From NCBI RefSeq assembly GCF_013912375.1, contig NZ_JACETV010000002.1:310001-374000 (forward strand): a DNA stretch of 64,000 bases, given 5' to 3'. The position numbers and the translations under genes were made by a program. This stretch comes from Emticicia sp. BO119. Its GTDB lineage: Bacteria; Bacteroidota; Bacteroidia; Cytophagales; Spirosomataceae. Below are positions 27,907 to 48,409 of the stretch, in pieces. The notes under the pieces were generated by a model. That model saw nothing but the letters and a program-made list of their open reading frames with translations, had not been told where the DNA came from and did not search any database. The stretch's first letter is position 1, and every line of letters begins with the position of its first letter.

Positions 27907-29502
27907 TTATTGTGCTATCCACAATTTTGTTGAGTTCAGATTCGTTCCGCCTGAAGCTGATTTAAAGTTGTCAGCATTATAAGAGATTTCATTATCAGGA
28001 TATACGAAACGGCTGTAATTACCAAAATTGCCCGTGTAATACTGTGTATTTGAAGTTGACATCGGCGTTTTGTTTCCGGTTCTTCTTTTCAAAGTCCAGG
28101 CATCAAATGGTTGTCTGAACTGGTCAATCCACAATTGTGCATAGATCTGGTTCAATGCAGTGGCAGGGTCAGCAGAATATGCTACCATTGGGTTGGTTAA
28201 TAAAGTATTCAATTCAGCCGCAGTTGCTGTAGCAGAAGTTGGTTTCGCTACTGTCCATACAGAAGAACTGACAGCAATACCTTTCCACATATCCACTGAT
28301 GCTTTGATACCCGCTTCGTATTCAGCTTTAGCAGTAGCGGCATTGGCGGTTACACCCATGCCTCTGTTATAGATTTCAGCTTTGATGAACCGTACCTGTG
28401 CAGCCGTCAGGATTAACTCAGGGATTGAAGTTAAATCCTGCTCGAAATAAAGGTTTACCGGTGAGTAAAGGTTGCTTGCCCCTTTATCACTCCAGGCTGT
28501 ATAGCGTTTTTTGTCGTAAGGCAAACCACCTTCAGTTGGGGTTACACCTGATATCGGGTTTTGAGGATAGGCTACCCATTCTCCGGCATTGTTTGGCTCG
28601 TAGAAGATTTTTGCACGAGGGTCAAAAATACCACTGCCGTCTTTATTATCATTAGCCGACATCATATGCCACATCGTAGAACCCATTCTTAGATAACAGT
28701 TAGCTGAGAATGACCATTCACGCCATTGTAAAGAAAGGTTCAGTTTTGAAGGCCATATTCCGATATTGTCAGTATCTGTCAATAATGGTTTGGTCAATGC
28801 CTCTGTGATATGCGTAGTTGCTAATGTTTTGTCTTTGTCATAGATAGTGGCTGCTATGTACAAACGAAGACTGTTAGCAAACTTAGTCCACATTGCAATG
28901 TCACCTTTGAAAAGGGTTTCATAATTACCTAAAGAAACCTGTGAGGCATCAGCTTTCAGGTTATCAACGGCCCATTTCAGATTAGTTAAAATATCGGTAT
29001 ATATTTCCTGTTGGGTGTTGTATTTGGCTTTATACACACCTGTACCTTTATCGGCCGCCAATGCAGCATAACCGGCATCTTTATAAGGCATGGCTCCAAA
29101 GTAGTTGGTAGCTTTGAAACTCTTATAAGCCATGATAGTTTTGAGCATTGCAGAGATGTTATTCATTGAAGCCGGATTATCGCTTTTTTCAATGCGGTCT
29201 TCAATAACACGTACATTCGCCAGGGTATAATAATAGTTATCCCAAACTGCACCTTTGGCGTTATCGTAAGGATAAGAACCCGATGTGATAGCCGCCTGCT
29301 GGGTAATTGGGTATATCCAGGCGTTCATTACTGACTGTTCGCCGCCTGTTAATGGTAGTGAACTCACTACTGCATTGAACATTTCAGGAGTAGAAGCACT
29401 ATTAGGTTTATCCCAGGGTGCATTGATTTCTTCAAAATCTTTCTTACACGATACCGAAGTAACAAGTAAGGCAACGATAGCTATTTTTGATAAATTTTTC
29501 AT
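27907..29502 (-). CDS. susD: SusD/RagB-type outer-membrane glycan-binding lipoprotein
   Basis: 531 residues with a lipoprotein signal (lipobox VTSVSC, cysteine near residue 20) followed by KKDFEEINAPWDKPN. It has the TPR-like helical fold of SusD-like_2 proteins: YNTQQEIYTDILTNLKWAVD and ITEALTKPLL are recognisable repeats, and GQFRQ/DAWTLKRRTG-like residues near the end. It would cap the SusC channel and bind the glycan at the cell surface. It follows SusC by 18 bp (same operon). Part of the glycan locus. Confidence 0.93.
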   Translation of the reverse strand: MKNLSKIAIVALLVTSVSCKKDFEEINAPWDKPNSASTPEMFNAVVSSLPLTGGEQSVMNAWIYPITQQAAITSGSYPYDNAKGAVWDNYYYTLANVRVIEDRIEKSDNPASMNNISAMLKTIMAYKSFKATNYFGAMPYKDAGYAALAADKGTGVYKAKYNTQQEIYTDILTNLKWAVDNLKADASQVSLGNYETLFKGDIAMWTKFANSLRLYIAATIYDKDKTLATTHITEALTKPLLTDTDNIGIWPSKLNLSLQWREWSFSANCYLRMGSTMWHMMSANDNKDGSGIFDPRAKIFYEPNNAGEWVAYPQNPISGVTPTEGGLPYDKKRYTAWSDKGASNLYSPVNLYFEQDLTSIPELILTAAQVRFIKAEIYNRGMGVTANAATAKAEYEAGIKASVDMWKGIAVSSSVWTVAKPTSATATAAELNTLLTNPMVAYSADPATALNQIYAQLWIDQFRQPFDAWTLKRRTGNKTPMSTSNTQYYTGNFGNYSRFVYPDNEISYNADNFKSASGGTNLNSTKLWIAQ

Positions 29503-29520
29503 GATTCTGTGTTTAATAGA

Positions 29521-32500
29521 TTATAGCCTTGCTTTTAATGAGAAACCTAAATCACGAGTACCCGGATATTGTGACCATTGGAAACCTTGTGCGTTGCCAA
29601 TACCGTTTACAGCCTCCGGATTCATTCTGTCAGGCAAGGTTGTGAATAAATAGAACAGGTTACGGCCCACAAATGAGATGTCTAAACCTTGTAGTACTTT
29701 GGTGCGTTTTACGATAGCCGATGGAACCGAGTAAGTAAGATTTACCTCACGTAATTTAGCCCACGAGTTTTCAAAAACGAGGTTGCTTCTTGGCATTTTC
29801 ACGTTAGACCAACCCATGTACTGACCTGCATATTTATACATATAATGTACTACGTCTGTATTTTTGGTACCGTCGGCAAATACACCTTCTAAAATCACAC
29901 CATGGTTGGCTGTGCTACCATCAGGATAAGTGTATGGTAAACCACCACCGTTTCTTTCAAGCAAAGTGCTTGGCGACAAACCATGACCCATAGAAGCACC
30001 GTAGTCGGCTGAGTAAATATCACCACCCAATTTGAAATCAGTCAATAAATATAAACTGAAGTTTTTGTAGCGAAGGGTGTTGCTCAAACCACCTGTTAGT
30101 TTCGGAGTTGTGTTACCAATAGCTACAGGATCGGCAGTGGTTACATATTGTGTGCCTACTACTTTATCAGTGGTTTTGTCAATTACTTTCTGTACAACTT
30201 TCTGGCCGTTCAGGTAAGTGTAATCATAACCATAGATGGTGCCATAGTTTTCACCAGCTTTTACGTACATCAATGCCCCGTTAGTTCCCCAAAGGTCAGC
30301 CAATGGATAACGATCTATACCTTCGGCCAATGAGATAACCTTATTCTGGTTATGTGCTCCGTTTAAAGCCAAATCCCATCTGAAAGAACCTGTATTGATT
30401 GGCGTAGCTCTGACAATAAACTCAAAGCCTTTGTTAGCCAACTCTCCTGTATTGAAAGTAACCGCAGTAGCACCTGAAGAAGTTGCTAAAGAAGAACTTA
30501 AAATCTGGCTTGTGGCTCTTGTCTGGTAGTAGGTCAGTTCCATGCTTAATTTACCAGCAAGGAAGCCTAACTCGGTACCGATTTCAAATGATTTGTTTCT
30601 TTGCGGTTGTAATAAACCAGCCGGAGGTAAAGTAGTTTGTAAGCTACGCACAGGCAAACCACCGAATGACGTGGCCGCAGTACCATTGATTGTATTGGTA
30701 ATGGTAGATGTATTGTAGGTGTATTGAGTCTGATACGGGCTTGCACCATTGGCGCTTTCGGCTAATGATACTTTTAATTTACCATAGCTCAGGAAGTTCT
30801 GATTTTTGAAAGCATCAATAGCTTCGGTAAACACAAAGCTTAAGCTTCCTGATGGGAAGAAATAAGAAGAAGTAGCAATTGGTAGTGTAGAAGACCAGTC
30901 ATTTCTTCCTGTCAATTGCAAGAACAAATAGTTATTATAGGATAAATCAGCGATACCAAACAATGAGTTCAGATTCAAATCATAGCGGGTTTCACCAGTA
31001 GTGATTTTAGTTTTATCAAGGTTGTTATTCAGATAGTATTTGAATGGTACGTCAAAGTTACCAGCATTCCAGGTATTTACGCCGTGGCTTCTGCTGCGTA
31101 GTGCAGAGTTACCAACTAATAAACTACCATTGAATTTAGAGCCAAACAAACCATCTTTATGTAATGTAGTGAAAGCCTCAAAGTTTACGTCCTGATTAGC
31201 GATGTTTTCCATGCCATATTGTCCTTGAATACCTGCTACGTCTATTGGGGTATTTTTACTTTCGATTGAAGTAGTTGCATTGTTGATGGAGGCGCGTCCT
31301 GCCAGGTTCAACCAGGGTGTCACATCAGCTGAAAGGCGGATAGAGCCTAATAATTGATTACGAGTGAGGTACTGGTTGTTTTCGTAGAATTTCCAGAACA
31401 TATCCTTAAACGCATTGTTGTTATAAGGATAATATTTGAATGGAGAAGACTGATCGAAGATATTTTTGCTTCCGTCAGCGTTTTTATACGAATCCAATTC
31501 TAATGGAATGTAATCGCGCGACATACCATGAATCATGAAGTTGGCCCAACCATTATCGTTAGCAGATTCAGGTGTATTCAAACGATTGTAGTTTGTATAA
31601 CTACCGGTAATTTCAGCTTTTACTTTTTTCGAAATATTTAAAGATGACCCTAAATTTACGTTAGTCTGGTCGTAGTTACTATTAGGGATAATCGCTTTAT
31701 TGTCTAATCTGGTTAAACCTACACGTAGTGTACCGTACTCACCACCACCACTGAAAGAGAGGTTATGAGTGTTGGTATTACCAGTCTGAAAATAAGCTTT
31801 TCTGTTATCAGGTTGAGCTTCCCATTTACGTTTTACGCCATCCCACCAGATTAATTCGGTACCATCTAATTTATGACCCCACGAAGACGCAGGCCCATAC
31901 CAACTGAAAATATCCCAAGAAGAATAACCACCCGGAATGGCACCACCACTACGATAATTGTTGTTTACATCCTGAGCATCCCAAGGGTAGTTACCAGGAT
32001 AACGCAGTTGACCGTCAGCAGTAGTTGGGAAAGGTTGAGTTGCCGACCATAGGGCTGAAGCTCCACCATATCCATACTCATTTTGCATATCCATGAAACG
32101 ATACGCAGTAGTCGTTAAAGAAGAGAAATTATAGTCTAAACCAAAATCTTCTCTTTTACCACCTTTTTTGCTGGTAATCATGATTACACCATTGGCACCA
32201 CGTGCCCCGTAAAGAGCAGCTGCGTTGGCACCTTTCAATACAGTAATATCTTCTACCTCGTCTGTATTGATAAAATTAAGGAACGAACCCCAGTCTTTCG
32301 GGCTTGTTACATCGCTGCTTTTGCCTTGTGTACCACCTACAGGGTCGTTTTGTACTTGAATACCGTCAATTACGATTAGCGGCTGGTTAGTGCCTAAGAT
32401 ACTGTTATTGCCTCTTATAACGATTCTCTGAGAACCCCCTTGCACCCCATTAGGCACAGAGATGTTTAAACCTGCTGATTTACCCATCAAACCCGAAGCG

Positions 32501-32910
32501 ATATCAGGTGGTGCGGCTTGTACTAACTCTTTAGAAGCAATTTTTTGAGCAGAATAACCAATTGATTTTGATTCTCTTTTGATACCGAGGGCAGTTACTA
32601 CTACCTCATTTAATTGTTTACTGTCTTCTACTAATTCAATATCAATGACTGAGCGTCCGTTTACCTCTATATTCTGGGTAGCGAAACCAATGAACGAAAC
32701 AACGAGTGTAGTTTTTGCATTCGGGACACTCAAAGAGTACTTTCCTTCAGGGTCAGTTATGGTTCCGTTGTTTGTACCTTTTACGGTTACCGACACGCCA
32801 GGTATGGGTTCTCCGCCAGAAGTTACCTTACCTGTAACAGTCTGTGCTAATACCGGTAGGCTAAAGCCCATCAATAATATCAGCACCAGCTTTGGTAAAA
32901 AATTTCTCAT
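29521..32910 (-). CDS. susC: SusC/RagA-type TonB-linked outer-membrane transporter
   Basis: 1129 residues: signal peptide, a CarboxypepD_reg-like domain (VTGKVTSGGEPIPGVSVTVK, about 24-105), the plug with ESKSIGYSAQKI, ALGIKRESKS and the SusC signature GANAAALYGARGANGVIMITSKKG, then a large beta-barrel. The N-terminal region bears the short linker typical of SusC. It pairs with SusD 18 bp downstream; the pair forms the import gate of the locus. The gene is divergent from the ROK regulator across a 679-bp intergenic region. Confidence 0.95.
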   Translation of the reverse strand: MRNFLPKLVLILLMGFSLPVLAQTVTGKVTSGGEPIPGVSVTVKGTNNGTITDPEGKYSLSVPNAKTTLVVSFIGFATQNIEVNGRSVIDIELVEDSKQLNEVVVTALGIKRESKSIGYSAQKIASKELVQAAPPDIASGLMGKSAGLNISVPNGVQGGSQRIVIRGNNSILGTNQPLIVIDGIQVQNDPVGGTQGKSSDVTSPKDWGSFLNFINTDEVEDITVLKGANAAALYGARGANGVIMITSKKGGKREDFGLDYNFSSLTTTAYRFMDMQNEYGYGGASALWSATQPFPTTADGQLRYPGNYPWDAQDVNNNYRSGGAIPGGYSSWDIFSWYGPASSWGHKLDGTELIWWDGVKRKWEAQPDNRKAYFQTGNTNTHNLSFSGGGEYGTLRVGLTRLDNKAIIPNSNYDQTNVNLGSSLNISKKVKAEITGSYTNYNRLNTPESANDNGWANFMIHGMSRDYIPLELDSYKNADGSKNIFDQSSPFKYYPYNNNAFKDMFWKFYENNQYLTRNQLLGSIRLSADVTPWLNLAGRASINNATTSIESKNTPIDVAGIQGQYGMENIANQDVNFEAFTTLHKDGLFGSKFNGSLLVGNSALRSRSHGVNTWNAGNFDVPFKYYLNNNLDKTKITTGETRYDLNLNSLFGIADLSYNNYLFLQLTGRNDWSSTLPIATSSYFFPSGSLSFVFTEAIDAFKNQNFLSYGKLKVSLAESANGASPYQTQYTYNTSTITNTINGTAATSFGGLPVRSLQTTLPPAGLLQPQRNKSFEIGTELGFLAGKLSMELTYYQTRATSQILSSSLATSSGATAVTFNTGELANKGFEFIVRATPINTGSFRWDLALNGAHNQNKVISLAEGIDRYPLADLWGTNGALMYVKAGENYGTIYGYDYTYLNGQKVVQKVIDKTTDKVVGTQYVTTADPVAIGNTTPKLTGGLSNTLRYKNFSLYLLTDFKLGGDIYSADYGASMGHGLSPSTLLERNGGGLPYTYPDGSTANHGVILEGVFADGTKNTDVVHYMYKYAGQYMGWSNVKMPRSNLVFENSWAKLREVNLTYSVPSAIVKRTKVLQGLDISFVGRNLFYLFTTLPDRMNPEAVNGIGNAQGFQWSQYPGTRDLGFSLKARL

Positions 32911-33589
32911 ATAATTTGACTTGGGTTAAAAATGATTGCTTTAAAAGTTCTTGATTGATTTTCCGGTGTCTGTTACTTAATAGTAGGCAAACCAACGGAA
33001 AAATATTGAACACCGGCTTCCTGACGGGAGTCATACAGGAGCAATGCAGAAGTGTCTAATAAGTACTACCTACTATATACTTTGCTTCTATAGTGAGGCG
33101 AGGTTCTTTGTGAATTTTAGCGATACTTTGACGATTTAGGGTTAAACATTCTTAATTAATAAATACTATGTTTTCTGCAACTCTGATAAGAATATCAGTC
33201 TGAAATGGCACAAAAAGGTAATTAGTACTGAGTGGATTTAAGAATGCGGGTTAAGGCTACTGTCTGAAATAGGTTATAGTTTAAGTTAAGTTATTTTTAA
33301 AAAAATGTTAAATATGGATACAAACATAAATAAAAATTATTTAATAAAAAGTAATTATTAAATTTTTTTAAAAATATATGATATGTTATTAAATTTTATA
33401 TGATATTTAGGCTCGATTTAGAAAAAAGAGCCTGATGGAGAAGAGTCTTGGCTTTTTTTTAATAAATTGCTTAGCGATTATTAAAATTCTGATCCCTAAG
33501 CTAAACCAGACATCTGCTTGCATGCCATTCAGATTGCTCACCCGGGCATGTATAGTATGAGCCTAACCTTATTTTAACTATAAAAAACA
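32911..33589. other. Divergent regulatory region between susC and the ROK gene
   Basis: 679 bp without a credible gene. The part from about 33290 to 33420 is extremely AT-rich (runs of A and T). There is a small dyad CTGATA-N4-TATCAG at 33183-33198 and a terminator-like hairpin at 33422-33460. It must hold the promoters of both the susCD and the ROK/glycosidase transcripts. No promoter box was convincing. Confidence 0.5.
33422..33460 (+). terminator. Terminator-like hairpin inside the intergenic region
   Basis: AAAAAAGAGCC pairs with GGCTTTTTTTT (11 bp, one G-T) around a 17-nt loop. It sits about 130 bp upstream of the ROK gene with no coding sequence before it, so it may be an attenuator of a leader transcript or the end of a small RNA. 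Confidence 0.4.
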
Positions 33590-34836: not shown

Positions 34837-36378
34837 ATGAAAAGATATTTTATTAAAGCAATCACCTTTGTCATGATAGCTTTTTCATTTTCTTCATTTA
34901 ATAAGAAAGCACCCGCCTCGCCCCGGCCTAATATTCTGGTTATTTTCTCTGACGACCACGCCTTACAGGCAATCAGTGCTTATGGTAGCCCACATATTCA
35001 AACCCCCAATATTGACCGGATTGCCAAAGATGGAGCTATTTTCAGAAATATGTTCTGTACTAATTCTATCTGTGGCCCGAGTAGAGCCACTTTGTTAACA
35101 GGCAAGTTCAGTCATAAAAACGGGCATATCAATAATAAAACGAGGTTTGATACAAACCAGGATATTTTTACAAAGTATTTACAGGAGGCTGGCTACGAAA
35201 CAGGCTGGATTGGTAAATGGCACTTAGTGAATTTACCGAAGTATTTTAATTACTGGTCGATTCTTCCGGGACAAGGGTCTTACTATAATCCTGATTTTAT
35301 TGAAATGGATGGGCAAACCCGTAGGCAAGAGGGCTATGCTTCTGATGTGATTGCAGGCAGAGCCATAGACTGGTTACAGAACAAGCATGATACTGCCAAA
35401 CCTTTTTGCCTGATTGTCGGACAAAACGCACCACACCGTACTTGGTTACCCGACACAGCAGACCTCCATGCTTTTGATGGTATAAAATTTAAAATGCCCG
35501 ATACCTTCTATGATACCTATGAAGGTAGAATAGCTGCGCAGAAACAAAAAATGCACATTGCCAAAGACCTGCGCATGGATTATGACCTGAAAGTAGATGA
35601 TAACCATCTGCCTCATAAAAAACGTATGAACGAGGCACAACTAAAAGCCTATAATGCCTATTACGAGCCTTTAAACGAGGAGTTTAAAAAGCAAAAACTG
35701 ACTGGTAAAGCATTAGACGAATGGAAGTTTCAGCGGTATATGCATGATTATATGGCCTGTGTGAAATCATTAGATAGAAATGTCGGGAAGGTATTAGATT
35801 ATCTGGATAAAAATGGTTTGACAGAGAATACACTCATAGTTTATGCCTCAGACCAGGGTTTTTATTTAGGTGAGCATGGCTGGTTTGATAAACGCTTTAT
35901 GTACGAAGAATCTTTCCATATGCCATTGGCAATGAAATATCCGAAACTGATAAAGAAAGGCACAGTTGTTAATGGTTTTGCCCAGAATATTGATTTTGCC
36001 CCGACTTTTCTTGAATTAGCAGGAGTGGGTATTCCGAATGACATTCAAGGCAGGTCTTTGCTGCCGCTTATGAAAAATCAGAAGCCTGCTTCCTGGCGTA
36101 AATCATTATATTATCATTATTATGAATATCCTGATGAGCATAATACTATGCCCCATTTCGGTGTGCGGACTGACCGCTATAAACTTATCAGATTTTATGA
36201 AGATGGCGATTTCTGGGAGTTGTATGACCTGAAAAATGACCGGAAAGAACTGAAGAATATTTATGCTTCTGCTCCTGAAACTCTGATAAATTCATTAAAA
36301 CAGGAATTGAACCGATTAATAGAGGAATATGATGATAAAGAAGCCGCAGCCATTTTAGCTAAAGAAACAAAGCCATAA
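34837..36378 (+). CDS. Secreted sulfatase
   Basis: 513 residues with a short signal (FIKAITFVMIAFSFSSF). Formylglycine motif C79-G-P-S-R83 (SICGPSRATLLTGKF), metal-binding D39-D40 in ILVIFSDDHALQAIS and the DQGFYLGEHGWFDKRFMYE segment mark a S1-family sulfatase. The C-terminus has HFGVRTDRYKLIRFYEDGDFWELYDLKNDRKELKNI. Acts in the periplasm or outside, releasing sulfate from glycan. In a locus of N-glycan enzymes it may remove sulfate from GlcNAc, Gal or Man. Starts 12 bp after ROK. Confidence 0.93.
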   Translation: MKRYFIKAITFVMIAFSFSSFNKKAPASPRPNILVIFSDDHALQAISAYGSPHIQTPNIDRIAKDGAIFRNMFCTNSICGPSRATLLTGKFSHKNGHINNKTRFDTNQDIFTKYLQEAGYETGWIGKWHLVNLPKYFNYWSILPGQGSYYNPDFIEMDGQTRRQEGYASDVIAGRAIDWLQNKHDTAKPFCLIVGQNAPHRTWLPDTADLHAFDGIKFKMPDTFYDTYEGRIAAQKQKMHIAKDLRMDYDLKVDDNHLPHKKRMNEAQLKAYNAYYEPLNEEFKKQKLTGKALDEWKFQRYMHDYMACVKSLDRNVGKVLDYLDKNGLTENTLIVYASDQGFYLGEHGWFDKRFMYEESFHMPLAMKYPKLIKKGTVVNGFAQNIDFAPTFLELAGVGIPNDIQGRSLLPLMKNQKPASWRKSLYYHYYEYPDEHNTMPHFGVRTDRYKLIRFYEDGDFWELYDLKNDRKELKNIYASAPETLINSLKQELNRLIEEYDDKEAAAILAKETKP

Positions 36379-36398: not shown

Positions 36399-37820
36399 AT
36401 GTACGATCTGAATCGAAGAAATTTCATTAAAACAACATCTCTTGCCGGAATCGGTATGATGGCTGGTAATTCTGCTTTTGGGGCTGATTTTCCAACTGTA
36501 CGTGTGGCACCTGCTAAAAGAAATTTTAGTAGTCCGGTTATTGAGGCCACGATTCATCGAATGAAATCGTCGATTAAAGATGCTGAATTAGGTTGGTTAT
36601 TTGAGAATTGTTTTCCGAATACATTAGATACTACAGTTATTTTTAAAACCAAAAATGGCAGACCAGATACTTTCGTAATTACAGGTGATATTCATGCCAT
36701 GTGGTTGCGTGACAGTTCTGCACAGGTATGGCCTTATCTGCCTTTAATCAGGCAAGACCCTAAGTTGAAGGACTTAATAGCTGGAGTTATTAACCGTCAG
36801 ACAGAATGTATTCTGATAGACCCTTATGCCAATGCCTTTAATGATGGACCGGGTAAATCTGAATGGTTATCAGACCACACGGAAATGAAGCCTGAATTGC
36901 ACGAGCGCAAGTGGGAACTGGATTCATTGTGTTATACCGTTCGTCTGGCCTATCATTACTGGAAAATATCGGGTGATATTAGTGTTTTTGATGAAAAATG
37001 GTTAAAAGCTGCCAAATTGATAATTGCTACCTGTCGTGTACAACAACGCCTGACAGATAGAGGACCATATCATTTTGGCCGTACTACCTCATGGTCGACA
37101 GATACCGTACCAGGCAATGGTTATGGAAATAATACCAAGCCTAATGGCTTGATTCACAGTATCTTCCGTCCATCTGACGATGCTACGTTATACCCATTCC
37201 TGATTCCGTCCAATCTGTTTGCCGTTATTTCTTTTCGTCAGTTAGCAGAGATTTCGGAGAAAGTTATAAAAGATACGGCCTTTGCCAAAGAATGTACAGC
37301 TTTTGCGAATCAGGTAGAAGCCGCTATTAAGAAATTTGCCATTATCAGCCATCCGGTTTACGGACAAATCTATGCAATGGAAGTTGATGGCTTCGGCAAT
37401 CGTTTATTGCAGGATGATGCCAATGTACCGAATCTATTAAGTCTGCCGTATCTGGGAGCTATAAAAGCTAATGACCCAATCTATCAGAATACCCGTCGAT
37501 TTGTATTAAGTGATAGCAACCCGTATTTCTTTAAAGGCAAAGCCGCAGAAGGTATTGGTAGTCCGCATACGCTTGTTAACCAGATATGGCCGATGAGTAT
37601 CATTATGCGGGCTATGACTTCAAACAATGACCAGGAAATATTGGCGCAATTAAGATTCCTGAAAAATACACACGCAGAGACAGGCTTTATACATGAGTCT
37701 TTCGATAAAGACGATGCCAGCAAATTCACCCGTAAATGGTTTGCCTGGGCAAATACACTTTTCGGTGAATTGATGCTAAAGATTGAGCGTGAGCGACCAC
37801 ATTTATTGAAGAATGTTTAG
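36399..37820 (+). CDS. GH125 exo-alpha-1,6-mannosidase
   Basis: 473 residues with a twin-arginine-like start (NRRNFIKTTSLAGIGMMAGN) ending at a cleavable GAD. The core matches GH125: ITGDIHAMWLRDSSAQVWPYLPL, GVINRQTECILIDPYANAFN, and HGKWELDSLCYTVRLAYHYW-type segment, WSTDTVPGNGYGNNTKPNGLI and SFDKDDASKFTRKWFAWANTLFGELML. GH125 hydrolyses alpha-1,6-linked mannose of N-glycans (and yeast mannan), one of the clearest hints of the substrate of the locus. 20 bp after the sulfatase. Confidence 0.92.
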   Translation: MYDLNRRNFIKTTSLAGIGMMAGNSAFGADFPTVRVAPAKRNFSSPVIEATIHRMKSSIKDAELGWLFENCFPNTLDTTVIFKTKNGRPDTFVITGDIHAMWLRDSSAQVWPYLPLIRQDPKLKDLIAGVINRQTECILIDPYANAFNDGPGKSEWLSDHTEMKPELHERKWELDSLCYTVRLAYHYWKISGDISVFDEKWLKAAKLIIATCRVQQRLTDRGPYHFGRTTSWSTDTVPGNGYGNNTKPNGLIHSIFRPSDDATLYPFLIPSNLFAVISFRQLAEISEKVIKDTAFAKECTAFANQVEAAIKKFAIISHPVYGQIYAMEVDGFGNRLLQDDANVPNLLSLPYLGAIKANDPIYQNTRRFVLSDSNPYFFKGKAAEGIGSPHTLVNQIWPMSIIMRAMTSNNDQEILAQLRFLKNTHAETGFIHESFDKDDASKFTRKWFAWANTLFGELMLKIERERPHLLKNV

Positions 37821-37961: not shown

Positions 37962-39401
37962 ATGAAGAAAGTAGTAGTAGCAGCAGTTCTTATGGCATTA
38001 TTAGGGCAAACCCTTTTTGCCCAACAACATTCTGAGCAGAATCACGAGAAATACGTCGTTCCGAAAGACCCCAAAGTAAAAGAAAAACTGAACCAGTGGC
38101 AGAATGTGAAATTCGGGTTAATGATGCACTGGGGTACTTATAGCCAATGGGGAATTGTAGAAAGCTGGAGCCTTTGCCCTGAAGACGAGGGCTGGTGTGA
38201 GCGTCGAGGGCCTTATAAAGATAATTGGTATGAGTACAAAAAGGCTTACGAAAATCTGCCAAAGACTTTTAATCCTGTGCAGTTTAACCCTGAAAAATGG
38301 TCGGCTGCTGCTAAGAATGCAGGAATGAAATACCTGGTTTTTACTACCAAGCACCATGATGGTTTCTGTATGTTTGATACCAAGCAAACAGATTATAAGA
38401 TTACCAATACACCTTTTGCGTCAAATCCAAGAAGCAATGTGGCTAAAGAGATTTTCAGCGCATTCCGAAAAGATGATTTCATGATTGGGGCATATTTCTC
38501 TAAACCTGACTGGCATACCAATGATTACTGGTGGTCTTACTTCCCTCCTAAGGACCGTAATCCATCTTATCATCCGGCAAAGTATCCTGACAAATGGAAA
38601 AGCTTTAAGCAATTTACTTATAACCAGATTGAAGAATTGATGAGTGATTACGGCAAAATGGATATTCTCTGGTTAGATGGTGGTTGGGTGCGCCCATTCA
38701 GCACGATTGATTCTTCTGTGTCATGGCAAAGAACGATTCCGTTCGATCAGGACATTGATATGGCGCGCATTGCTAAAATGGGAAGAGAACATCAGCCGGG
38801 TTTGTTAGTAGTAGATAGAACGGTGAGTGGTGAATTTGAAAACTATGTAACACCAGAGCAACAGATTCCTGACCATTATATGCCGATTCCGTGGGAAACC
38901 TGTATGACAATGGGCGATTCATGGAGTTATATTCCTAAAGAAAACTTCAAGCCTGCCAGAAAATTAATACATATTCTGACAGATGTAGTATCAAAAAATG
39001 GTAACTTGCTATTGAATATAGCACCAAGCCCACAAGGAGATTTCCATCCCGAAGCCTACCAGCGTCTGGAAGAAATCGGTAAATGGATGAAAGTAAATAG
39101 TGAGGCTATTTATAATACCAGGGGTGATAATGAGATAGGCAAGCAAAACAAACTGGTGTTTACGCACAATGCCAATACTACTTATGCCATTTATAGAGCA
39201 GATGAAGGCGAGAGCATTCCGGCAAGTATTGAAATAAACAATCTGGCTTTATCTAAAAATACTCTGATGAGTCTACTTGGCAGCACTGAAAAACTGAAAT
39301 GGGTAGCGAAAGACGGGAAAGTAATAGTTGAAATCCCGGAAAAAGTGAGAAAGACAGCTTGGAGCAACTACGCATGGGTATTGAAAATAGTCAGGCAATA
39401 A
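37962..39401 (+). CDS. GH29 alpha-L-fucosidase
   Basis: 479 residues from the ATG at 37962 (signal MKKVVVAAVLMALLGQTLFA); a longer frame from a TTG at 37899 lacks a signal. The GH29 hallmark FGLMMHWGTYSQWGIVESW is present, KHHDGFCMFDTKQTDYKI follows, and the nucleophile is D239 in DILWLDGGW. The acid/base is not assigned. It probably removes alpha-linked fucose from N-glycan antennae or core. Preceded by a 141-bp gap after GH125. Confidence 0.93.
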   Translation: MKKVVVAAVLMALLGQTLFAQQHSEQNHEKYVVPKDPKVKEKLNQWQNVKFGLMMHWGTYSQWGIVESWSLCPEDEGWCERRGPYKDNWYEYKKAYENLPKTFNPVQFNPEKWSAAAKNAGMKYLVFTTKHHDGFCMFDTKQTDYKITNTPFASNPRSNVAKEIFSAFRKDDFMIGAYFSKPDWHTNDYWWSYFPPKDRNPSYHPAKYPDKWKSFKQFTYNQIEELMSDYGKMDILWLDGGWVRPFSTIDSSVSWQRTIPFDQDIDMARIAKMGREHQPGLLVVDRTVSGEFENYVTPEQQIPDHYMPIPWETCMTMGDSWSYIPKENFKPARKLIHILTDVVSKNGNLLLNIAPSPQGDFHPEAYQRLEEIGKWMKVNSEAIYNTRGDNEIGKQNKLVFTHNANTTYAIYRADEGESIPASIEINNLALSKNTLMSLLGSTEKLKWVAKDGKVIVEIPEKVRKTAWSNYAWVLKIVRQ

Positions 39402-39414: not shown

Positions 39415-40332
39415 ATGAATCGTCGTCGTTTTCTGAGAAATAGTGCCCTGGCAGGTACATTAGCAGGTTTTGATGCTACTGCTGCAACCATACGCAAGAA
39501 ATCGTTAAGAGTAGCCTATCTAAGTGATGTACACGTATTCCCAAGCAAGATAGCCGAGGAAGGAATGACAAAAGCCTACCATAGTGCCAACGCACTAAAC
39601 CCTAAACCTGATTTTATCATTAATGGGGGAGATGCTATTTTCGATGGCCTGGAGAAATCAAAAGACGAAACACAGACCCAGTTTAAACTCTTTCAGAAAC
39701 TATTAAAAGAGAACAATAAATTAGAAGTAAAGCATATTATCGGCAACCACGACATCTGGGGTTGGTTCAGCAAAACAGAAGATATAAAAGGCGACCGATT
39801 GTATGGAAAACAATGGATAACAGACGAATTTCAGATGCCGAAAAGGTATTATTCGTTTGTGAAAAAAGGCTGGAAATTTATTATTCTGGATTCTACCCAA
39901 CTGAATCCTAAAGGCGGATATATTGCTTATTTTGACCCTGAGCAATTAGAGTGGCTTAAAGGCGAATTGGCAGCAACTCCACCAAATCAATATATTTGTA
40001 TTGCTTCTCATATTCCGATTTTATCAGCGGCCTCGGGCTTATTCCTGAATAAAAATCAGGAAAACGGCGATATTGTTATGCCTCGTAACCTGATACATAC
40101 GGATGTGTTTGATATGATAAAACTTTTCAGAAATTACCCCAATATCAAAACTTGTCTGAGTGGGCACCTGCACATGCAGGAATCGCTTACGTATTGGGAT
40201 TTAACTTATCTAAATAATGGGGCAGTTTCGGGTGGTTGGTGGAAAGGAGCTTTCAGAGATTTTGAGCCAGCCTATGCTATTCTTGATTTTTATGACGATG
40301 GCACCTTTGAAAGGACATTTGTAAAATACTAA
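39415..40332 (+). CDS. Secreted metallophosphoesterase
   Basis: 305 residues with a twin-arginine-like N-terminus (MNRRRFLRNSALAGTLAGF). Calcineurin-like phosphoesterase motifs are visible in order: AYLSDVHVFP, NGGDAIFDG, IGNHDIWGW, ASHIPIL and LSGHLHMQ (metal-binding D, H, D, N, H, H). Located 13 bp after GH29 in the middle of the glycosidase cluster; it may remove phosphate or phosphodiester groups from glycans, but this is inference, as the family is broad. Confidence 0.88.
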   Translation: MNRRRFLRNSALAGTLAGFDATAATIRKKSLRVAYLSDVHVFPSKIAEEGMTKAYHSANALNPKPDFIINGGDAIFDGLEKSKDETQTQFKLFQKLLKENNKLEVKHIIGNHDIWGWFSKTEDIKGDRLYGKQWITDEFQMPKRYYSFVKKGWKFIILDSTQLNPKGGYIAYFDPEQLEWLKGELAATPPNQYICIASHIPILSAASGLFLNKNQENGDIVMPRNLIHTDVFDMIKLFRNYPNIKTCLSGHLHMQESLTYWDLTYLNNGAVSGGWWKGAFRDFEPAYAILDFYDDGTFERTFVKY

Positions 40333-40368: not shown

Positions 40369-41412
40369 ATGCAATCGAGAAGAAAGTTTATACAATGGTC
40401 GGCACTCAGCCTGCCTTTTATTTCTGCAACTAAGGGTTTTTCGAATAAGAATACTATTGCTAATAAACCCATTGTTGTTTCTACATGGGATAGTGGCTTA
40501 GCTGTCAATGCCGAGGCATGGAAAGTGTTGAAGAAAAACGGGCGTGCTCTGGATGCCGTAGAAGTAGCTGCTAATTCAATTGAAGATACCATTAATTGTT
40601 GTGTTGGCCTGGGAGGTAACCCTGACCGTGACGGGAAAGTAACCTTAGATGCCTGTATTATGGACGAAAAAGCTAATTGTGGTTCAGTGGCTTTTTTGCA
40701 GCATATCAAACACCCGATTTCAGTAGCTCGCAAGTTGATGGAAACTACCCCGCATGTGATGCTTGCCGGTGATGGTGCTTTGCAATTTGCTTTGGCTAAT
40801 GGCTTTAAAAGAGAGCCTGATAAGCTATCAGCCGACGCTGAGAAAGCCTATAAGGAATGGTTGAAGAAATCAGAATACAAGCCTGTTATTAATATTGAAC
40901 AGCAACAGATAAAGGCTAAAAAATCTGATGGTGGCCCTTTTGCTCCAAGCTATTTTGATGATGGTACACCCAACCACGATACAATGGGTACGATTGCGCT
41001 TGATGCCTCGGGTAATTTGTCAGGTGCTTGTACTACCAGTGGCATGGCTTTTAAACTGCATGGTCGTATTGGTGATTCGCCTATTATCGGAGCGGGTTTG
41101 TTTGTTGATAACGAAATCGGGGCAGCCACCTCATCTGGTCAGGGCGAAGAAGTAATCAGAGTAGCCGGCACGCACCTGGTTGTAGAAATGATGCGTTTAG
41201 GCAAGACGCCGGAAGAAGCCTGCAAAATTGCGGTAGAACGTATTGTAAAAATAAACCCTGAAAAAGCCAAAGGCTTTCAGGTGGGTTTTATTGCCATTAA
41301 TAAGCAAGGTGAGTACGGAGCCTATTCAATCCAACATGGTTTTAGCTATTCAGTTACCCTTGCCGACGATGGTGGTAAGGTCTTTATGGCCAAGAGTCAT
41401 TTCCCTAAATAG
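40369..41412 (+). CDS. Glycosylasparaginase (N4-(beta-GlcNAc)-asparaginase)
   Basis: 347 residues with a twin-arginine-like N-terminus (MQSRRKFIQWSALSLPFIS). An Ntn hydrolase that cleaves the bond between GlcNAc and asparagine. The autoprocessing site is NHD-T205-MGTIALDASGNLSGACTTSG; T205 becomes the nucleophile of the beta chain. The substrate pocket segment GRIGDSPIIGAGLFVDNEIGAATSSGQGEEVIR is typical. It explains complete degradation of N-glycan stubs in this locus. Confidence 0.93.
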   Translation: MQSRRKFIQWSALSLPFISATKGFSNKNTIANKPIVVSTWDSGLAVNAEAWKVLKKNGRALDAVEVAANSIEDTINCCVGLGGNPDRDGKVTLDACIMDEKANCGSVAFLQHIKHPISVARKLMETTPHVMLAGDGALQFALANGFKREPDKLSADAEKAYKEWLKKSEYKPVINIEQQQIKAKKSDGGPFAPSYFDDGTPNHDTMGTIALDASGNLSGACTTSGMAFKLHGRIGDSPIIGAGLFVDNEIGAATSSGQGEEVIRVAGTHLVVEMMRLGKTPEEACKIAVERIVKINPEKAKGFQVGFIAINKQGEYGAYSIQHGFSYSVTLADDGGKVFMAKSHFPK

Positions 41413-41522
41413 CAAACTTATATCCTATAATAATTAGTGCCTGTGTTTAGGCGTGCTACGGTCTTTAAACTGTGTCACGCCTTTCTTTGCGCCTTTATTT
41501 AATATTATTCGACCTATTTCGC

Positions 41523-42899
41523 ATGAAAAAAATCCTTCTAATCCTGACAACGCTGTTATGTTTACAGACAAATGCTCAATATCAGCCTAACTGGCAAAGT
41601 CTTGACCAGCGTCAGACTCCTGCCTGGTTTGAAGATGCCAAGTTTGGGATATTTATCCATTGGGGAATCTACTCAGTGCCTGCATGGGCAACCAATTCAA
41701 ATGCCGATGGTTTTGGCAGCGGCTATGCCGAATGGTACTGGCAACGCCTGTTTGCACCTAATCTCAAAATCCATAAAGAATTTGTAGCGTTTCATGAGAA
41801 AAACTACGGTAAAGCTTCTTATCAGGACTTTGTGCAACAATTTAAAGCCGAGCTATTTAAGCCGGAGGATTGGGCCAGCATATTCGAACAAGCCGGAGCC
41901 AAATACGTGGTACTGACTTCTAAGCATCATGAAGGATTCACTATGTGGCCGAGCCCTCAATCCTGGAACTGGAATGCTGTTGATGTTGGGCCTCATAGAG
42001 ATTTAGCTGGAGATTTATCAAAAGCCGTAAAAGCAAAAAATCTGCACATGGGCTATTATTATTCTTTGTATGAATGGTTTAATCCGGTTTATAAAACTGA
42101 TGTAAATGCTTATGTAAATGAGCGTATGATTCCGCAAATGAAAGATTTGGTAACCAAGTATCAACCTGATATTTTGTGGACAGATGGCGAGTGGGACCAT
42201 CCGGCTAAAACATGGAAAAGTGAGGAGTTTCTGACATGGTTATACAATGATTCGCCTGTAAAAAACAGTGTGGTAGTAAACGACCGTTGGGGTAATGATA
42301 CCAAGAGTAAACACGGGAGTTTTTATACTTCTGAATATGGTCATGGCGGAGCAGACAATTCGCCCACCAACGGTTTTGCCAGACCCTGGGAAGAGTGTAG
42401 AGGAATAGGTGAATCTTTCGGATATAATCGTAATGAAAACCTGGAAGTGTATCAGACAGGCGAACAGTTAGTGCATCAATTGGTAGATATTGTGGCACGC
42501 GGAGGTAATTTTCTGCTCAATATCGGACCAACGGCTGACGGGCGAATTCCTGTGATTATGCAACAGAGATTAAAAGAAATGGGAGATTGGCTGAACGTGA
42601 ATGGTGGGGCTATTTATGGTACACGCAAATGGGCTAAAGCACCTGCTTATAGCAAGGAATCAAAAGTGCATTTTACGCAGAAAGGGAAGAATGTCTATGC
42701 AATTGTGAGTAAATGGCAGGAAACTATTACCGTTGAAAATGTAGAGAAACCAACGAAAGTAAAACTATTGGGTTTTGATGGAGATATAAAATTTACTTAT
42801 AAAAATAAGGTACTTACCATTACTGCCCCACTGGTAAATCCGAATACAATTCCTTGCCAATATGCATGGACTTATGAATTAACGGACGCGCAGAAATAA
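41523..42899 (+). CDS. GH29 alpha-L-fucosidase (second copy)
   Basis: 458 residues from the ATG at 41523 (signal MKKILLILTTLLCLQTNA); the frame starting at 41472 gives a less natural N-terminus. GH29 signatures: AKFGIFIHWGIYSVPAWATN, TSKHHEGFTMWPS, and the nucleophile D221 in DILWTDGEWD. It is distinct from the first copy (about 39401), so the two fucosidases may target different linkages. It ends 10 bp before the next gene. Confidence 0.93.
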   Translation: MKKILLILTTLLCLQTNAQYQPNWQSLDQRQTPAWFEDAKFGIFIHWGIYSVPAWATNSNADGFGSGYAEWYWQRLFAPNLKIHKEFVAFHEKNYGKASYQDFVQQFKAELFKPEDWASIFEQAGAKYVVLTSKHHEGFTMWPSPQSWNWNAVDVGPHRDLAGDLSKAVKAKNLHMGYYYSLYEWFNPVYKTDVNAYVNERMIPQMKDLVTKYQPDILWTDGEWDHPAKTWKSEEFLTWLYNDSPVKNSVVVNDRWGNDTKSKHGSFYTSEYGHGGADNSPTNGFARPWEECRGIGESFGYNRNENLEVYQTGEQLVHQLVDIVARGGNFLLNIGPTADGRIPVIMQQRLKEMGDWLNVNGGAIYGTRKWAKAPAYSKESKVHFTQKGKNVYAIVSKWQETITVENVEKPTKVKLLGFDGDIKFTYKNKVLTITAPLVNPNTIPCQYAWTYELTDAQK

Positions 42900-45093: not shown

Positions 45094-46053
45094 ATGAAAA
45101 TTAAAAATCTGTTACTTCCTTTATTAATTATTTACCTGGTTACCTTTTCTGCATCAGCTCAAACTAAAGATTTTAAGGTAGTAGGGTATTATACCCCATC
45201 CATTCCGCCTGAAAAATTGCCTTTCGATTTGCTGACACATATTAATTATGCCTTTGCGATTCCTGCTAAGACAGGGGATACTTTATTCCCAATTGGCCAA
45301 CCTGACAATTTGAAAAGTTTAGTTAAGATAGCGCATCAACATAAAAAGTCAGTTTTCATCTCTATCGGCGGTTGGGGAATTGGTGATGGTGGCGGTGATG
45401 ATACCCGTTTCCATAAAATGGCTGAACGTGCCGAAGGTAGACATACTTTTGTGAAGAACGTAATGAAATTTGTGAAAACTTATCAGGTTGATGGTGTGGA
45501 TTTAGATTGGGAATATCCTGATGAAAATAGCCCGTCGGCTGACCATTATGTGAGTTTAGTATCAGAATTAGCAGACTCATTACATAAAAAAGGCAAAAAA
45601 CTAACAGCAGCAGTCATTTCCAAAGGCGTTAAAGGTGGTGGTATTAAAAAGGAAGCTTTCGATAAAATGGACTGGCTGAATCTGATGGCTTATGATGATG
45701 ATTACGGCCCAAGTTACGTGATAGCGCACTCGCCTTATTCTTTAGCTCTAAAAAGTCTCGATTACTGGATAAAAGAGCGTGGCTTACCTGCCCATAAAGC
45801 CTTATTAGGCCTACCATTCTACTCTAAAAAAGGCATGGGTAATTATGGTCCGGGCTACAGCGATTTAATCAAAGATGGTGCAAGCCAGTATGACGATTAC
45901 TGGAAAGGAGCTTTCTATAATGGAACTATCACCATAGAAAACAAAGTAAAATTAGCCAAAAATCGTGGTTGTGGTGGGGTGATGATATGGGAAATAGCTT
46001 TAGACACTACTGACGACACTTCGTTGCTGAAAGCTATTCGGAGGAGTAAATAA
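45094..46053 (+). CDS. GH18 enzyme (chitinase or endo-beta-N-acetylglucosaminidase)
   Basis: 319 residues with signal LLLPLLIIYLVTFSASA. The GH18 motif DxxDxDxE is D133-G-V-D136-L-D138-W-E140; SVFISIGGWG and MAYDDDYGP are the other signature strands. GH18 endo-glycosidases cleave the chitobiose core of N-glycans, which fits this locus, but short chitinases share the fold. No carbohydrate-binding module is visible. Last plus-strand gene of the cluster, followed by a convergent terminator. Confidence 0.9.
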   Translation: MKIKNLLLPLLIIYLVTFSASAQTKDFKVVGYYTPSIPPEKLPFDLLTHINYAFAIPAKTGDTLFPIGQPDNLKSLVKIAHQHKKSVFISIGGWGIGDGGGDDTRFHKMAERAEGRHTFVKNVMKFVKTYQVDGVDLDWEYPDENSPSADHYVSLVSELADSLHKKGKKLTAAVISKGVKGGGIKKEAFDKMDWLNLMAYDDDYGPSYVIAHSPYSLALKSLDYWIKERGLPAHKALLGLPFYSKKGMGNYGPGYSDLIKDGASQYDDYWKGAFYNGTITIENKVKLAKNRGCGGVMIWEIALDTTDDTSLLKAIRRSK

Positions 46054-46086
46054 GCTTAAAACCCTTTATTAAGCCTTTTAAGTTTA

Positions 46087-46117
46087 GAAGATATAGAGAA
46101 TGGTTCTCTATATCTTC
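46087..46117. terminator. Bidirectional hairpin between GH18 and the acyltransferase gene
   Basis: A perfect 14-bp inverted repeat (GAAGATATAGAGAA and its complement) with a 3-nt loop; it overlaps the last codons of the minus-strand acyltransferase gene and serves both convergent transcripts. Confidence 0.7.
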
Positions 46118-47286
46118 AATTTAATACCAATCTTCCCAAGTAAGGCTGTAATCCCGATAATCAATAAAGCAAATAGCATCGATTTGATTAAACCTACTAT
46201 ACCGAAAGTCAGGCTTACTGGTAAAGCAACATAGAAAGAATAGACAATGTATGGTATCAGATAACAGGTTAGTGTACTTGTACCTGCTGGTTTAATAATA
46301 TTGAACCAATGGGCTTTGTGTTGCAAATCTACCAGCCAGTAAATAAAGGCATAGGTAATAAAAGCAACTCCACAACAAATAAACACCCAGGTTGGTGTAG
46401 CATAAATCTTCGATATGATAAAGAACTTCCGTAAGACGAACCCTAAAAGTAACATCACTATCCCAATACCGAGATAGATAAAGGTTAGTCTTACTTTCTT
46501 ATCTGCTGTATAAAAACGTTCGAGTAATACTGTCGCTAATATACCCGTAAATGTAAAAGCCGAAAAAGCGCCATTCCCTAAAATCCAGTCATTCGGGCCA
46601 TTAAGCCATATTGATTTTAACCACCCGGCGTGCCCTGCAATAGACATCAGATTGAGAAATACCCAAACTGCTATCAATAAGTTTGTCTTTTTATAGAAGA
46701 AAAGATATAAGATAGCGCAGGTAAGATAGGTCCAGCCGATAAGCCCCAGAATACCCCACCAATGCGGTTTCATCATTTCTGCTTTTTCACCACCTCTGAA
46801 TTTATAAATCAGGAAGACTAAAATAGCCACTCCAAGGACTTGTAAGGCAATGAAAAGATACTTTTTAGAGTCTTGGTTTTTCGGATAAACATTCCATATA
46901 AGAAAGAAACCTATTACAGGGCTCACCTGAAAAGTCGATTGGCTCATACCAGTCGCCTCTGCATTCATTTCAGGGATATTTACTGTGAAAAAACCCATGA
47001 TTAATAAAGCGATAGAACGGAAAACAATGTGTTTAATAATCTGCAAATTGTTTTCGCCTTTGGCAATTCTGGCTTTGATAGCAAATGGAATAGACATACC
47101 TACAATGAACAGAAAACAGGGGAAGATAATATCTGAAAAGCCCAGAAAATCTACATGTGCTTCGGAATGTTGCAGCCAGTCAGGGATACCTGTCAGCGTC
47201 CAGAAATCATTCACAAAAATCATCAGGAGCATGGTCAATGCCCGAAATACATCAATAGAAGCAATACGTTTCAGAGAGATTTCCAT
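46108..47286 (-). CDS. HGSNAT-like (DUF5009) membrane acyltransferase
   Basis: 392 residues, about ten transmembrane segments. The opening SIDVFRALTMLLMIFVNDFW, then DFLGFSDIIFPCFLFIVGMSIPFAI is characteristic of the heparan-alpha-glucosaminide N-acetyltransferase/DUF5009 family; the animal enzyme acetylates terminal glucosamine across a membrane. Bacteroidota homologues often sit in glycan loci. It may acetylate released glucosamine, an inference. Begins 7 bp after the stop of the GH20-like gene, same operon. Confidence 0.88.
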   Translation of the reverse strand: MEISLKRIASIDVFRALTMLLMIFVNDFWTLTGIPDWLQHSEAHVDFLGFSDIIFPCFLFIVGMSIPFAIKARIAKGENNLQIIKHIVFRSIALLIMGFFTVNIPEMNAEATGMSQSTFQVSPVIGFFLIWNVYPKNQDSKKYLFIALQVLGVAILVFLIYKFRGGEKAEMMKPHWWGILGLIGWTYLTCAILYLFFYKKTNLLIAVWVFLNLMSIAGHAGWLKSIWLNGPNDWILGNGAFSAFTFTGILATVLLERFYTADKKVRLTFIYLGIGIVMLLLGFVLRKFFIISKIYATPTWVFICCGVAFITYAFIYWLVDLQHKAHWFNIIKPAGTSTLTCYLIPYIVYSFYVALPVSLTFGIVGLIKSMLFALLIIGITALLGKIGIKLKI

Positions 47287-47293
47287 AGTTTTC

Positions 47294-48409
47294 TTATTTG
47301 CTTTCTTCTATTTTTTTAATCTCCTCAAATATCGCCTTAAAACAAGCTGATTGTGTATTTTCTCCGGCTTCAGGATTTACCTTTACTCCATAAAATTCAT
47401 CCAGAAACTGCCCGGCTCCCGACCATACCGTTTGCATCATACCCTGAAAACGTTCTTTCATCACGGGTGTAACCGATTTTCTGAATCTTACCATATCCTG
47501 CGTTTGTAGTACAGCGTTTTTCGGGTTTCTCCAAGGGCAGGTTATAACGTTTAACCCTTTTGAAGCAAAGAGCACAGCTGTCTGGTCAGGCCTTTCATAG
47601 TGCCAGTCACAAATCATTACATCTTTTTCTATCAGGTCAATCGCTCTGTGAGTATTATTAAAGCTACCTTCCCACATACCTATACCAGTGGTTTTGCCGT
47701 CAATCAATCTGTCGCCCCAAATCCAGAGTTTTCTGTTTTTGAGTGCCAGATGATTTCTGATTTTATTTACTTCTCCTGCAAATAACTCTGCTTTATCTCT
47801 TCCGCCACATCTTGGGCATTTATCGTCACCGATATAAAATACTTCGTCCATTCCTGCGTGAAAAGCATCTGTTTCAAACACCTCGCATATTTCATCTACC
47901 AGTTCAAACACTATTTTGTGTACTTCTGGGTGTAGCGGGCAATAGCTTTTGCAATACAATCCGTCAGCATTAGGCCATACATATTTCTCGGGCATTTTTA
48001 CATGTGGAGTCTCATCAAATTGCGGGTAGACTCTAAGCAAATTATGAGTAGTTTTAGCCCATGACTGATGCCCTAATAAATTGATTTGCGGTATAATTCG
48101 GATATTGTTTTTCTGACAGGCTTTTACCATCTTTTTCACATCCTGCTTTGATAGCGCAATACTATCACGCAATTCGGGGTGGGTCTGAAACTGGTAGTTC
48201 CAGTCTACACGTAGTATCAGTGTATTTACTTTTCTGGTCGCTAATTCTTCATTAATAAATTTTACAAAAGTATCTACTTGCTTAGGCTGTGGAGCGGCAA
48301 TACAAAAGCCGCGGACTGGGAGGAGACTGTCTGTTTTTGACTGTGCCAGGAGCGATTCTGAAACAATCAGGCAAACGAAAGTAAACAACAAAGAAATTTG
48401 TCTGTTCAT
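47294..48409 (-). CDS. GH20-like beta-N-acetylhexosaminidase
   Basis: 371 residues with signal FTFVCLIVSESLLAQ. A TIM-barrel of GH20 type: NNIRIIPQINLLGHQSWAK, VDEICEVFETDAFHAGMDEVF with the catalytic D188-E189 dyad. It is shorter than typical GH20 enzymes, having no N-terminal GH20b domain, and has a CPRCGG motif near 199-204, perhaps a zinc or disulfide site. Acts on terminal GlcNAc or GalNAc. In an operon with the acyltransferase. Confidence 0.85.
   Translation of the reverse strand: MNRQISLLFTFVCLIVSESLLAQSKTDSLLPVRGFCIAAPQPKQVDTFVKFINEELATRKVNTLILRVDWNYQFQTHPELRDSIALSKQDVKKMVKACQKNNIRIIPQINLLGHQSWAKTTHNLLRVYPQFDETPHVKMPEKYVWPNADGLYCKSYCPLHPEVHKIVFELVDEICEVFETDAFHAGMDEVFYIGDDKCPRCGGRDKAELFAGEVNKIRNHLALKNRKLWIWGDRLIDGKTTGIGMWEGSFNNTHRAIDLIEKDVMICDWHYERPDQTAVLFASKGLNVITCPWRNPKNAVLQTQDMVRFRKSVTPVMKERFQGMMQTVWSGAGQFLDEFYGVKVNPEAGENTQSACFKAIFEEIKKIEESK

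Follow-up and report, generated by a model that had tools for sequence, protein, structure and literature searches.

The window analysed here, a 64-kb stretch of the 6.57-Mb genome of Emticicia sp. BO119, carries between positions 27907 and 48409 a group of genes that probably constitutes a polysaccharide-utilization-type locus for core-fucosylated N-glycans as made by plants and invertebrates. Nine of the genes follow one another on the forward strand with gaps of 10 to 78 bases and encode, in this order, a ROK regulator, a sulfatase, a glycoside hydrolase (GH) of family 125, a first GH29 fucosidase (GH29a), a phosphoesterase, a glycosylasparaginase (AGA), a second GH29 fucosidase (GH29b), a secreted protein that we call X719, and a GH18 enzyme. 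A SusC/SusD pair on the reverse strand is divergent from this run. From the gene content and motifs, the close packing and conservation of the genes, and the occurrence of a PNGase gene in the corresponding cassette of Runella, we infer the substrates, the order of the steps, and the regulation that are proposed below.

A cassette shared by Emticicia and Runella

According to the accessible part of a 2025 report (PMC12381499), PNGaseRz of Runella zeae selects core alpha-1,3-fucosylated glycans, and its gene lies in a likely operon with genes for fucosidases, an alpha-mannosidase, a GH18 protein, and an asparaginase. A run of this kind is present in the Runella DNA that we compared, namely, locus L151 of Runella sp. 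CRIBMP and locus L043 of G190, a genome of our phylum sample in which the PNGase and GDSL genes are, respectively, 97% and 94% identical to their CRIBMP counterparts. In both loci the run reads GH125-GH29a-AGA-X719-GDSL-GH18-PNGase F-II, and the PNGase, of 559 amino acids (L043:4713-6392), is matched by all three PNGase F/F-II models. Since this orthologous cassette encodes a type-II PNGase F, and given the selectivity reported for PNGaseRz, the N-glycan reading is strengthened, and the core-fucosylated N-glycan target put forward in a preliminary description of the window finds support. We regard the PNGaseRz report, as far as its accessible text goes, as the strongest outside support for such a substrate. 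This kind of locus is already in print with the PNGaseRz operon, the locus of the window being a variant without PNGase.

The two Runella loci belong to a set of six, picked because they share GH125, GH29a, AGA, and X719; the others are the window, L104, L105 (the same as L162), and L106. Beyond the four selecting genes, GH18, the phosphoesterase, and ROK together with SusC are each found in four of the six loci, the sulfatase and GH29b each in three, and the PNGase F-II in two, both from Runella. GH125, GH29a, AGA, X719, and GH18 stand in the same order in the window and L106 as in L043 and L151, with other genes interspersed. The locus of Emticicia agri (L105; genome G402) is nearly identical to that of the window (X719, 90%; AGA, 97%) and has no GH18. 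PNGase F (PF09113) was matched in 4 of the 58 genomes searched and in none of the 36 same-family genomes of that set, to which G190 did not belong. The GDSL gene of the Runella cassette encodes a two-domain esterase (L043:7417-9240; L151:12131-13951), which suggests that the substrate in Runella carries acyl groups.

Enzymes of the locus

The gene families named in the preliminary description are borne out by curated family models (Table 1), and the active-site motifs that were looked for are present in the sulfatase, AGA, GH18, GH20, and both GH29 proteins (LWLDG and LWTDG in the latter). All the families listed there were found, but the phosphoesterase and X719 had been overlooked. Likewise, the idea of one 20-kb cluster holds for the nine close-packed genes from ROK to GH18, but probably not for the GH20 and HGSNAT-like genes, which lie 3' of GH18 on the opposite strand, converge on the nine-gene run, and are not always kept with it: both are retained in L104 and L105, whereas in L106, L043, and L151 neither a GH20 nor a NagX-like gene was detected around the cassette. 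Because of this convergent orientation and patchy distribution, the two genes look like a separate neighbouring unit.

Table 1. Features of the locus, with positions in the window and supporting matches (Tat-type [RR] N-termini and the SusD lipobox were read by eye from the N-terminal sequences)
Feature	Position	Strand	Evidence
SusD-like surface lipoprotein	27907..29502	-	Pfam SusD-like_2 E 5e-46; lipobox-like ...SVSC
SusC/RagA TonB-dependent importer	29521..32910	-	TIGR04056 E 9e-169
Candidate paired operator, two AT-rich palindromes	33292..33376	.	SusC/ROK intergenic region
ROK/NagC-like regulator, 411 aa	33590..34825	+	PF00480 E 3e-57; weak N-terminal HTH match
Sulfatase	34837..36378	+	SGSH_C E 3e-67; PDB 7p24 E 6e-168; CGPSR
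GH125 exo-alpha-1,6-mannosidase, Tat-type signal	36399..37820	+	PF06824 E 1e-170
GH29a alpha-L-fucosidase	37899..39401 (start probably ATG 37962)	+	PF01120 E 2e-96; PDB 6gn6 E 9e-54
Calcineurin-like metallophosphoesterase, Tat-type signal	39415..40332	+	PF00149 (Metallophos) E 4e-11
Glycosylasparaginase (AGA), Tat-like signal	40369..41412	+	PF01112 E 2e-65; NHDT
GH29b alpha-L-fucosidase, human FUCA1 type	41472..42899 (start probably ATG 41523)	+	GH29 E 3e-124; PDB 7pls E 1e-120
X719, secreted GH36-like protein, 719 aa	42910..45069	+	Predicted fold; no family at E<=0.001
GH18, chitobiose-cleaving or endo-glycosidase candidate	45094..46053	+	PF00704 E 9e-45; PDB 6xyz E 5e-35
DUF5009 / NagX- and HGSNAT-like membrane acyltransferase	46108..47286	-	PF16401 E 3e-10; NagX E 3e-5, below cut-off
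GH20 beta-N-acetylhexosaminidase	47294..48409	-	PF00728 E 1e-15; PDB 8bal E 6e-94; HAGMDE

By its sequence relationships, the PF01112 member is predicted to be a glycosylasparaginase rather than an isoaspartyl peptidase: its nearest solved structures are glycosylasparaginases (PDB 3ljq/1p4k; E 4e-118), isoaspartyl peptidases matching at E 1e-36, and the autoproteolysis site is intact (NHDT from residue 202, the bond before T205). GH29b has its best PDB match in the tissue alpha-L-fucosidase 7pls, which we take to be human FUCA1, and GH125 matches 2p0v (BT3781; E 1e-181) and the alpha-1,6-mannosidase 5m7i (E 5e-123). Besides 7p24, the sulfatase matches 5g2v, an N-acetylglucosamine (GlcNAc)-6-sulfatase (E 7e-152), its nearest structures being of the mucin-desulfating or GlcNAc-6-sulfatase type. 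The GH18 protein had been described as an endo-glycosidase candidate; the family is confirmed, but the protein resembles chitinases and chitotriosidase, and its chitinase-type motif, DGVDLDWE, leaves the endo-glycosidase function as a candidate only. The phosphoesterase contains the motifs DVH, GD, GNHD, and GHLH and has no PDB relative at E 0.01.

X719, a family with a predicted GH36-like fold

The real novelty of the locus is X719, which represents a large family of Bacteroidota unclassified in Pfam and NCBIfam. The protein, of 719 residues with a signal peptide, matches no family of either collection at E<=0.001 and gives only chance-level rows against PDB sequences (best E, 0.47). The family is found in 14 of the 395 genomes of the phylum sample and in 24 of the 58 genomes of a different set, that of the relatives (in one of them at E 9e-4 only), and comprises at least 565 tblastn-confirmed stretches, with many named genera of Cytophagales, Chitinophagales, and Sphingobacteriales represented. 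An AlphaFold model built from 37 sequences reached a pLDDT of 83.6 and a pTM of 0.86, with low confidence at model residues 193-205, 221-227, 241-250, 495-497 (pLDDT <50), and 540-542. Foldseek placed alpha-galactosidases at ranks 1 to 20 (E 1.9e-22 to 2.6e-19; six rows labelled GH36) and, below rank 20, a Flavonifractor alpha-galactosaminidase and GH97 enzymes; the best TM score was 0.61, and the matches had identities of 10-13% and whole-chain root mean square deviations of ∼9-10 Å. The modelled fold is thus GH36-like at a TM score of ∼0.6.

We considered whether X719 is an ordinary GH36 enzyme, an assignment that sequence comparisons ruled out and that we keep at the level of the fold. When 18 X719 members were scanned, 15 families gave matches at E<=1, none of them Melibiase (PF02065), and hhalign of X719 with eight GH36 proteins gave a probability of 1%. 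A weak match to Glyco_hydro_36N at E<=1 was seen for 15 of these 18 proteins, with 1e-6 as the best value and 0.049 for the window protein. In GH36 enzymes, the nucleophile is an Asp on strand 4 and the acid/base an Asp on strand 6. Invariant in the 18 X719 members are E455-x-D457-G, which follows strand 4 of the model, D505, just behind strand 5, and the pair R520-E521 on strand 6. Strand 6 would thus carry a Glu and not an Asp, in a stretch (model residues 495-497) of low confidence. E455, D457, D505, and R520-E521 are candidate catalytic residues in this model. One of the 18 scanned members bears an NPCBM domain.

Fucosidases are the commonest neighbour of X719. Counting same-strand open reading frames of at least 180 amino acids separated by gaps of <250 bases, 59 of 80 loci yielded 158 neighbours. 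We scanned 75 of them from 56 loci (the first on each side, up to 900 amino acids, leaving aside L151 of Runella and L162 of E. agri) and found 18 GH29, three GH20, two GH95, two sulfatases, and one each of GH35, GH123, and GH92; the 18 GH29 neighbours are not independent, several Chitinophaga loci contributing to them, and the tally stands without a control set. X719 is often found without homologues of the other cluster genes nearby and is not confined to N-glycan loci. The model and these neighbours suggest that X719 is an alpha-glycosidase acting on glycans that bear fucose. With a fairly confident fold, and without a name in Pfam or NCBIfam at E 0.001, it offers a concrete target for study.

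Relatives of the phosphoesterase (bits >45) occur close to X719 in 5 of 80 named loci, including that of E. agri, in 2 of 20 others, and in none of 20 controls; such relatives, 27-33% identical, stand beside or near X719 in other genera (L054:10871-11455, L182:6402-7277, and L185:9014-9802). In Dyadobacter (L165, L166, and L172, at ∼12100-13700), an HGSNAT/NagX-like gene whose product is 49-50% identical to that of the window follows X719 directly or shortly after it; in the window, too, the gene of this type is close to X719.

Proposed route and comparison with known systems

Our current working hypothesis is that SusC/SusD would import glycopeptides or Asn-linked glycans, whose caps would be removed in the periplasm by the sulfatase, the phosphoesterase, and X719. 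GH125 would take off alpha-1,6-mannose, fucose would be removed by the two GH29 enzymes, with GH29b as the candidate for the core fucose, AGA would next cleave the GlcNAc-Asn bond, and GH18 would split the GlcNAc-GlcNAc (chitobiose) core, a GlcNAc-like product relieving the NagC-type ROK repressor. The amidase step in Emticicia would be that of AGA after proteolysis; in Runella, a PNGase with specificity for core alpha-1,3-fucose would precede the same back end. No match to PNGase F_C (PF09113) or PNGase A was found in the window genome, in which GH85 and GH163 were not searched for. Since no PNGase of these two types was found, AGA acting after proteolysis, with the human-FUCA1-like fucosidase, is the likely route to the Asn-linked sugar.

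For the same reason, the Emticicia scheme would resemble the lysosomal order more closely than the PNGase route. The disassembly of N-glycans in mammalian lysosomes involves FUCA1, AGA, chitobiase, and hexosaminidase, and defucosylation precedes AGA. The locus shares with it a GH29b nearest to a tissue fucosidase, an AGA, and a GH18, and defucosylation would here, too, take place ahead of AGA, whereas the GH18 motif of the window is of chitinase type, the compartment is the bacterial periplasm, and the order in Emticicia is a proposal.

Compared with the PNGaseRz-type operon, the window locus has neither the type-II PNGase nor the GDSL esterase and adds SusC/D, ROK, the sulfatase, the phosphoesterase, and the FUCA1-type GH29. 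A second relevant system is the alf-2 cluster of Lactobacillus casei, knock-outs of which show that a GH29, an AGA, and a ROK protein jointly use Fuc-GlcNAc-Asn, according to the accessible text of PMC6960285. The likeness lies in these three components (AlfC, AsnA2, and SugK). However, as far as that text goes, alf-2 uses a major facilitator superfamily (MFS) permease, AlfH, instead of SusC/D, there is no signal peptide on its AsnA2, the ROK protein of alf-2 is a sugar kinase whereas that of the window is a probable helix-turn-helix (HTH) regulator, and no mannosidase, sulfatase, or GH18 is named. Neither an AlfH-type MFS permease nor the aspartate decarboxylase AsdA is among the window locus genes. 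The plant N-glycan pathway of Bacteroides massiliensis, as described in the accessible part of PMC9522356, also belongs to Bacteroidota and, like the window locus, contains GH29, in the form of a core alpha-1,3-fucosidase; it includes a PNGase with core alpha-1,3-fucosylated glycans as substrates and names GH92, GH3, and GH2, whereas GH125 and an asparaginase are absent from its main text. Of the features expected of a Bacteroidota N-glycan locus, a SusC/SusD pair beside the enzymes and an alpha-mannosidase for the core (GH125; E 1e-170) are both present; for a third, an enzyme that releases the glycan (PNGase, GH85, or a GH18 endo-beta-GlcNAcase), the candidate is the GH18 with its chitinase-type motif. 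The fucosidases Eo0918, Eo3066, and Eo3812 of E. oligotrophica, taken from the accessible parts of PMC10154630, PMC11189522, and PMC12854890, may include orthologues of GH29a or GH29b, although we claim no link.

The absence of GH92 had been taken in the preliminary description as a sign of short chains. GH92 is indeed absent among the locus genes, but the genome has two GH92 matches elsewhere, so that the lack of this family at the locus is no guide to the length of the chains; there are also two matches each to GH130 and GH2 elsewhere in the genome, and none to GH38. We considered a second N-glycan locus at the GH92 genes and rejected it, the scanned neighbours (BNR, YdjC, propeller, DUF3748, and S58 genes at the first; sulfatase, GH78, and oxidoreductase genes at the second) not being clearly those of an N-glycan locus. 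One GH2 gene lies ∼18 kb away from one GH92.

Most work on the bacterial use of N-glycans concerns species of the gut and pathogens. If the route proposed here is correct, it would show how environmental Bacteroidota recycle plant or invertebrate glycoproteins in full, with cleavage even of the bond between GlcNAc and Asn in glycopeptides. More tentatively, and with the odds against it, one may imagine that X719 stands for a new and widespread family of GH36-like alpha-glycosidases, which take off an alpha-linked cap next to fucose on N-glycans, and that the Emticicia route is lysosome-like and PNGase-free (caps, core fucose, AGA, chitobiose), acting on a glycan that would also bear sulfate and phosphodiester. 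In N-glycans of amoeboid organisms and invertebrates, such caps occur together with core alpha-1,3-fucose, and soil amoebae or invertebrates could then be a food source.

Points against and alternative substrates

Several observations weigh against an N-glycan locus. Among the locus genes, we recognised neither an alpha-1,3-mannosidase nor a beta-mannosidase, and the removal of alpha-1,3-mannose and beta-mannose would therefore need enzymes encoded outside. The GH18 motif, as noted, is that of a chitinase, L104 lacks both GH29b and GH18, and L105 lacks GH18. AGA homologues, isoaspartyl peptidases counted in, occur in 288 of the 395 phylum-sample genomes, so that AGA alone is not diagnostic. 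GH125 and AGA in one locus had been called a strong pointer. The two do share a locus in the window, but the pairing is not general: among the relatives, one-piece matches at >=65% identity were found in 21 genomes for AGA and in 22 for GH125, and of the 17 genomes that have both, just 4 (window, G395, G402, and G396) have them within 10 kb, some of the remaining 13 being fragmented drafts. Finally, SusC/D and ROK aside, none of the other cluster genes is seen in 14 of 24 AGA loci.

Among the alternatives, the one that survives best, although we consider it unlikely, is a sulfated, fucosylated target other than N-glycans (mucin-like, algal, or blood-group-like), AGA merely salvaging GlcNAc-Asn or other beta-aspartyl amides. 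The affinity of the sulfatase for mucin-desulfating and GlcNAc-6-sulfatase structures would agree with such a target, as would the neighbours of X719 elsewhere (GH29, GH20, GH95, sulfatases, GH35, GH123, and GH92), which also suit O-glycans. However, since the sulfatase was not found in the cassettes of L106 and Runella, it lies outside the cassette core, whereas a PNGase is part of the orthologous cassette in Runella, and GH125 has a specificity solely for alpha-1,6-mannose, according to the accessible part of a review (PMC10154615). That same text, which describes GH125 and phosphatases as cooperating in yeast-mannan degradation, lends some weight to a fungal alpha-mannan or chitin-mannoprotein target, in which GH125 would act on alpha-1,6-mannan, GH18 (with its chitinase-type motif) and GH20 on chitin, and the phosphoesterase on phosphomannan. 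We hold this to be quite improbable, because neither GH76 nor GH92 is among the annotated locus genes, the two fucosidases and AGA would have no evident role, and a PNGase F-II sits in the Runella cassette. Least probable of all is a loose set of separate salvage genes under a shared regulator, without a single substrate: AGA, GH125, and X719 lie at different places in most relatives, but the gaps within the nine-gene run are short, GH125, GH29a, AGA, and X719 stand together in two genera, and GH29 and ROK recur near AGA.

The latter association, which is somewhat wider than the pairing of GH125 with AGA and also speaks for the N-glycan reading, was assessed by tblastn with the window proteins (bits >80), which misses more distant GH29 in both sets. 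The search covered 24 AGA loci of 7.7-19.9 kb and, as controls, 20 stretches of 19.9 kb, of which 19 came from the genomes of these loci. GH29 was found in 10 of the 24 loci versus 0 of the 20 controls, and so was ROK, the loci being interrelated, as Emticicia accounts for 6 of the 10 GH29-positive and 8 of the 10 ROK-positive ones.

Regulator and related loci

The ROK protein resembles the NagC model (E 7e-73), yet far below the equivalog cut-off, and its N terminus matches HTH_24 at E 4e-4, slightly short of the curated cut-off. Upstream of its gene, the two AT-rich palindromes of Table 1 are 71 bases apart, and the pair recurs at the same spacing, with one to two mismatches, in L104-L106, three Emticicia loci in which SusC and ROK are arranged as in the window, against ∼0.1 expected per region from single-base shuffles. 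The pair is a possible looping operator, but, as the DNA is AT-rich, the relatives are close, and only single bases were shuffled, it is a weak candidate on which we put no weight.

In three other Emticicia (L107-L109), the genes after ROK-AGA-GH29b are those for DUF2264, a PfkB kinase, and a GlcNAc-2-epimerase-like protein, and in L108 and L109 there are also xylose-isomerase-like and mandelate-racemase-like genes, which is a different downstream programme. L110 has this arrangement without GH29b, and L136 has ROK-AGA only; the genes of L108 were assigned by Pfam scan and those of L107, L109, L110, and L136 by clustering. Thus, a related ROK gene adjoins AGA in some genomes, and in others it lies next to or near GH125 (L127 and L132, with SusC/D), the stretch of L132 also carrying an M28 peptidase and GH29a.

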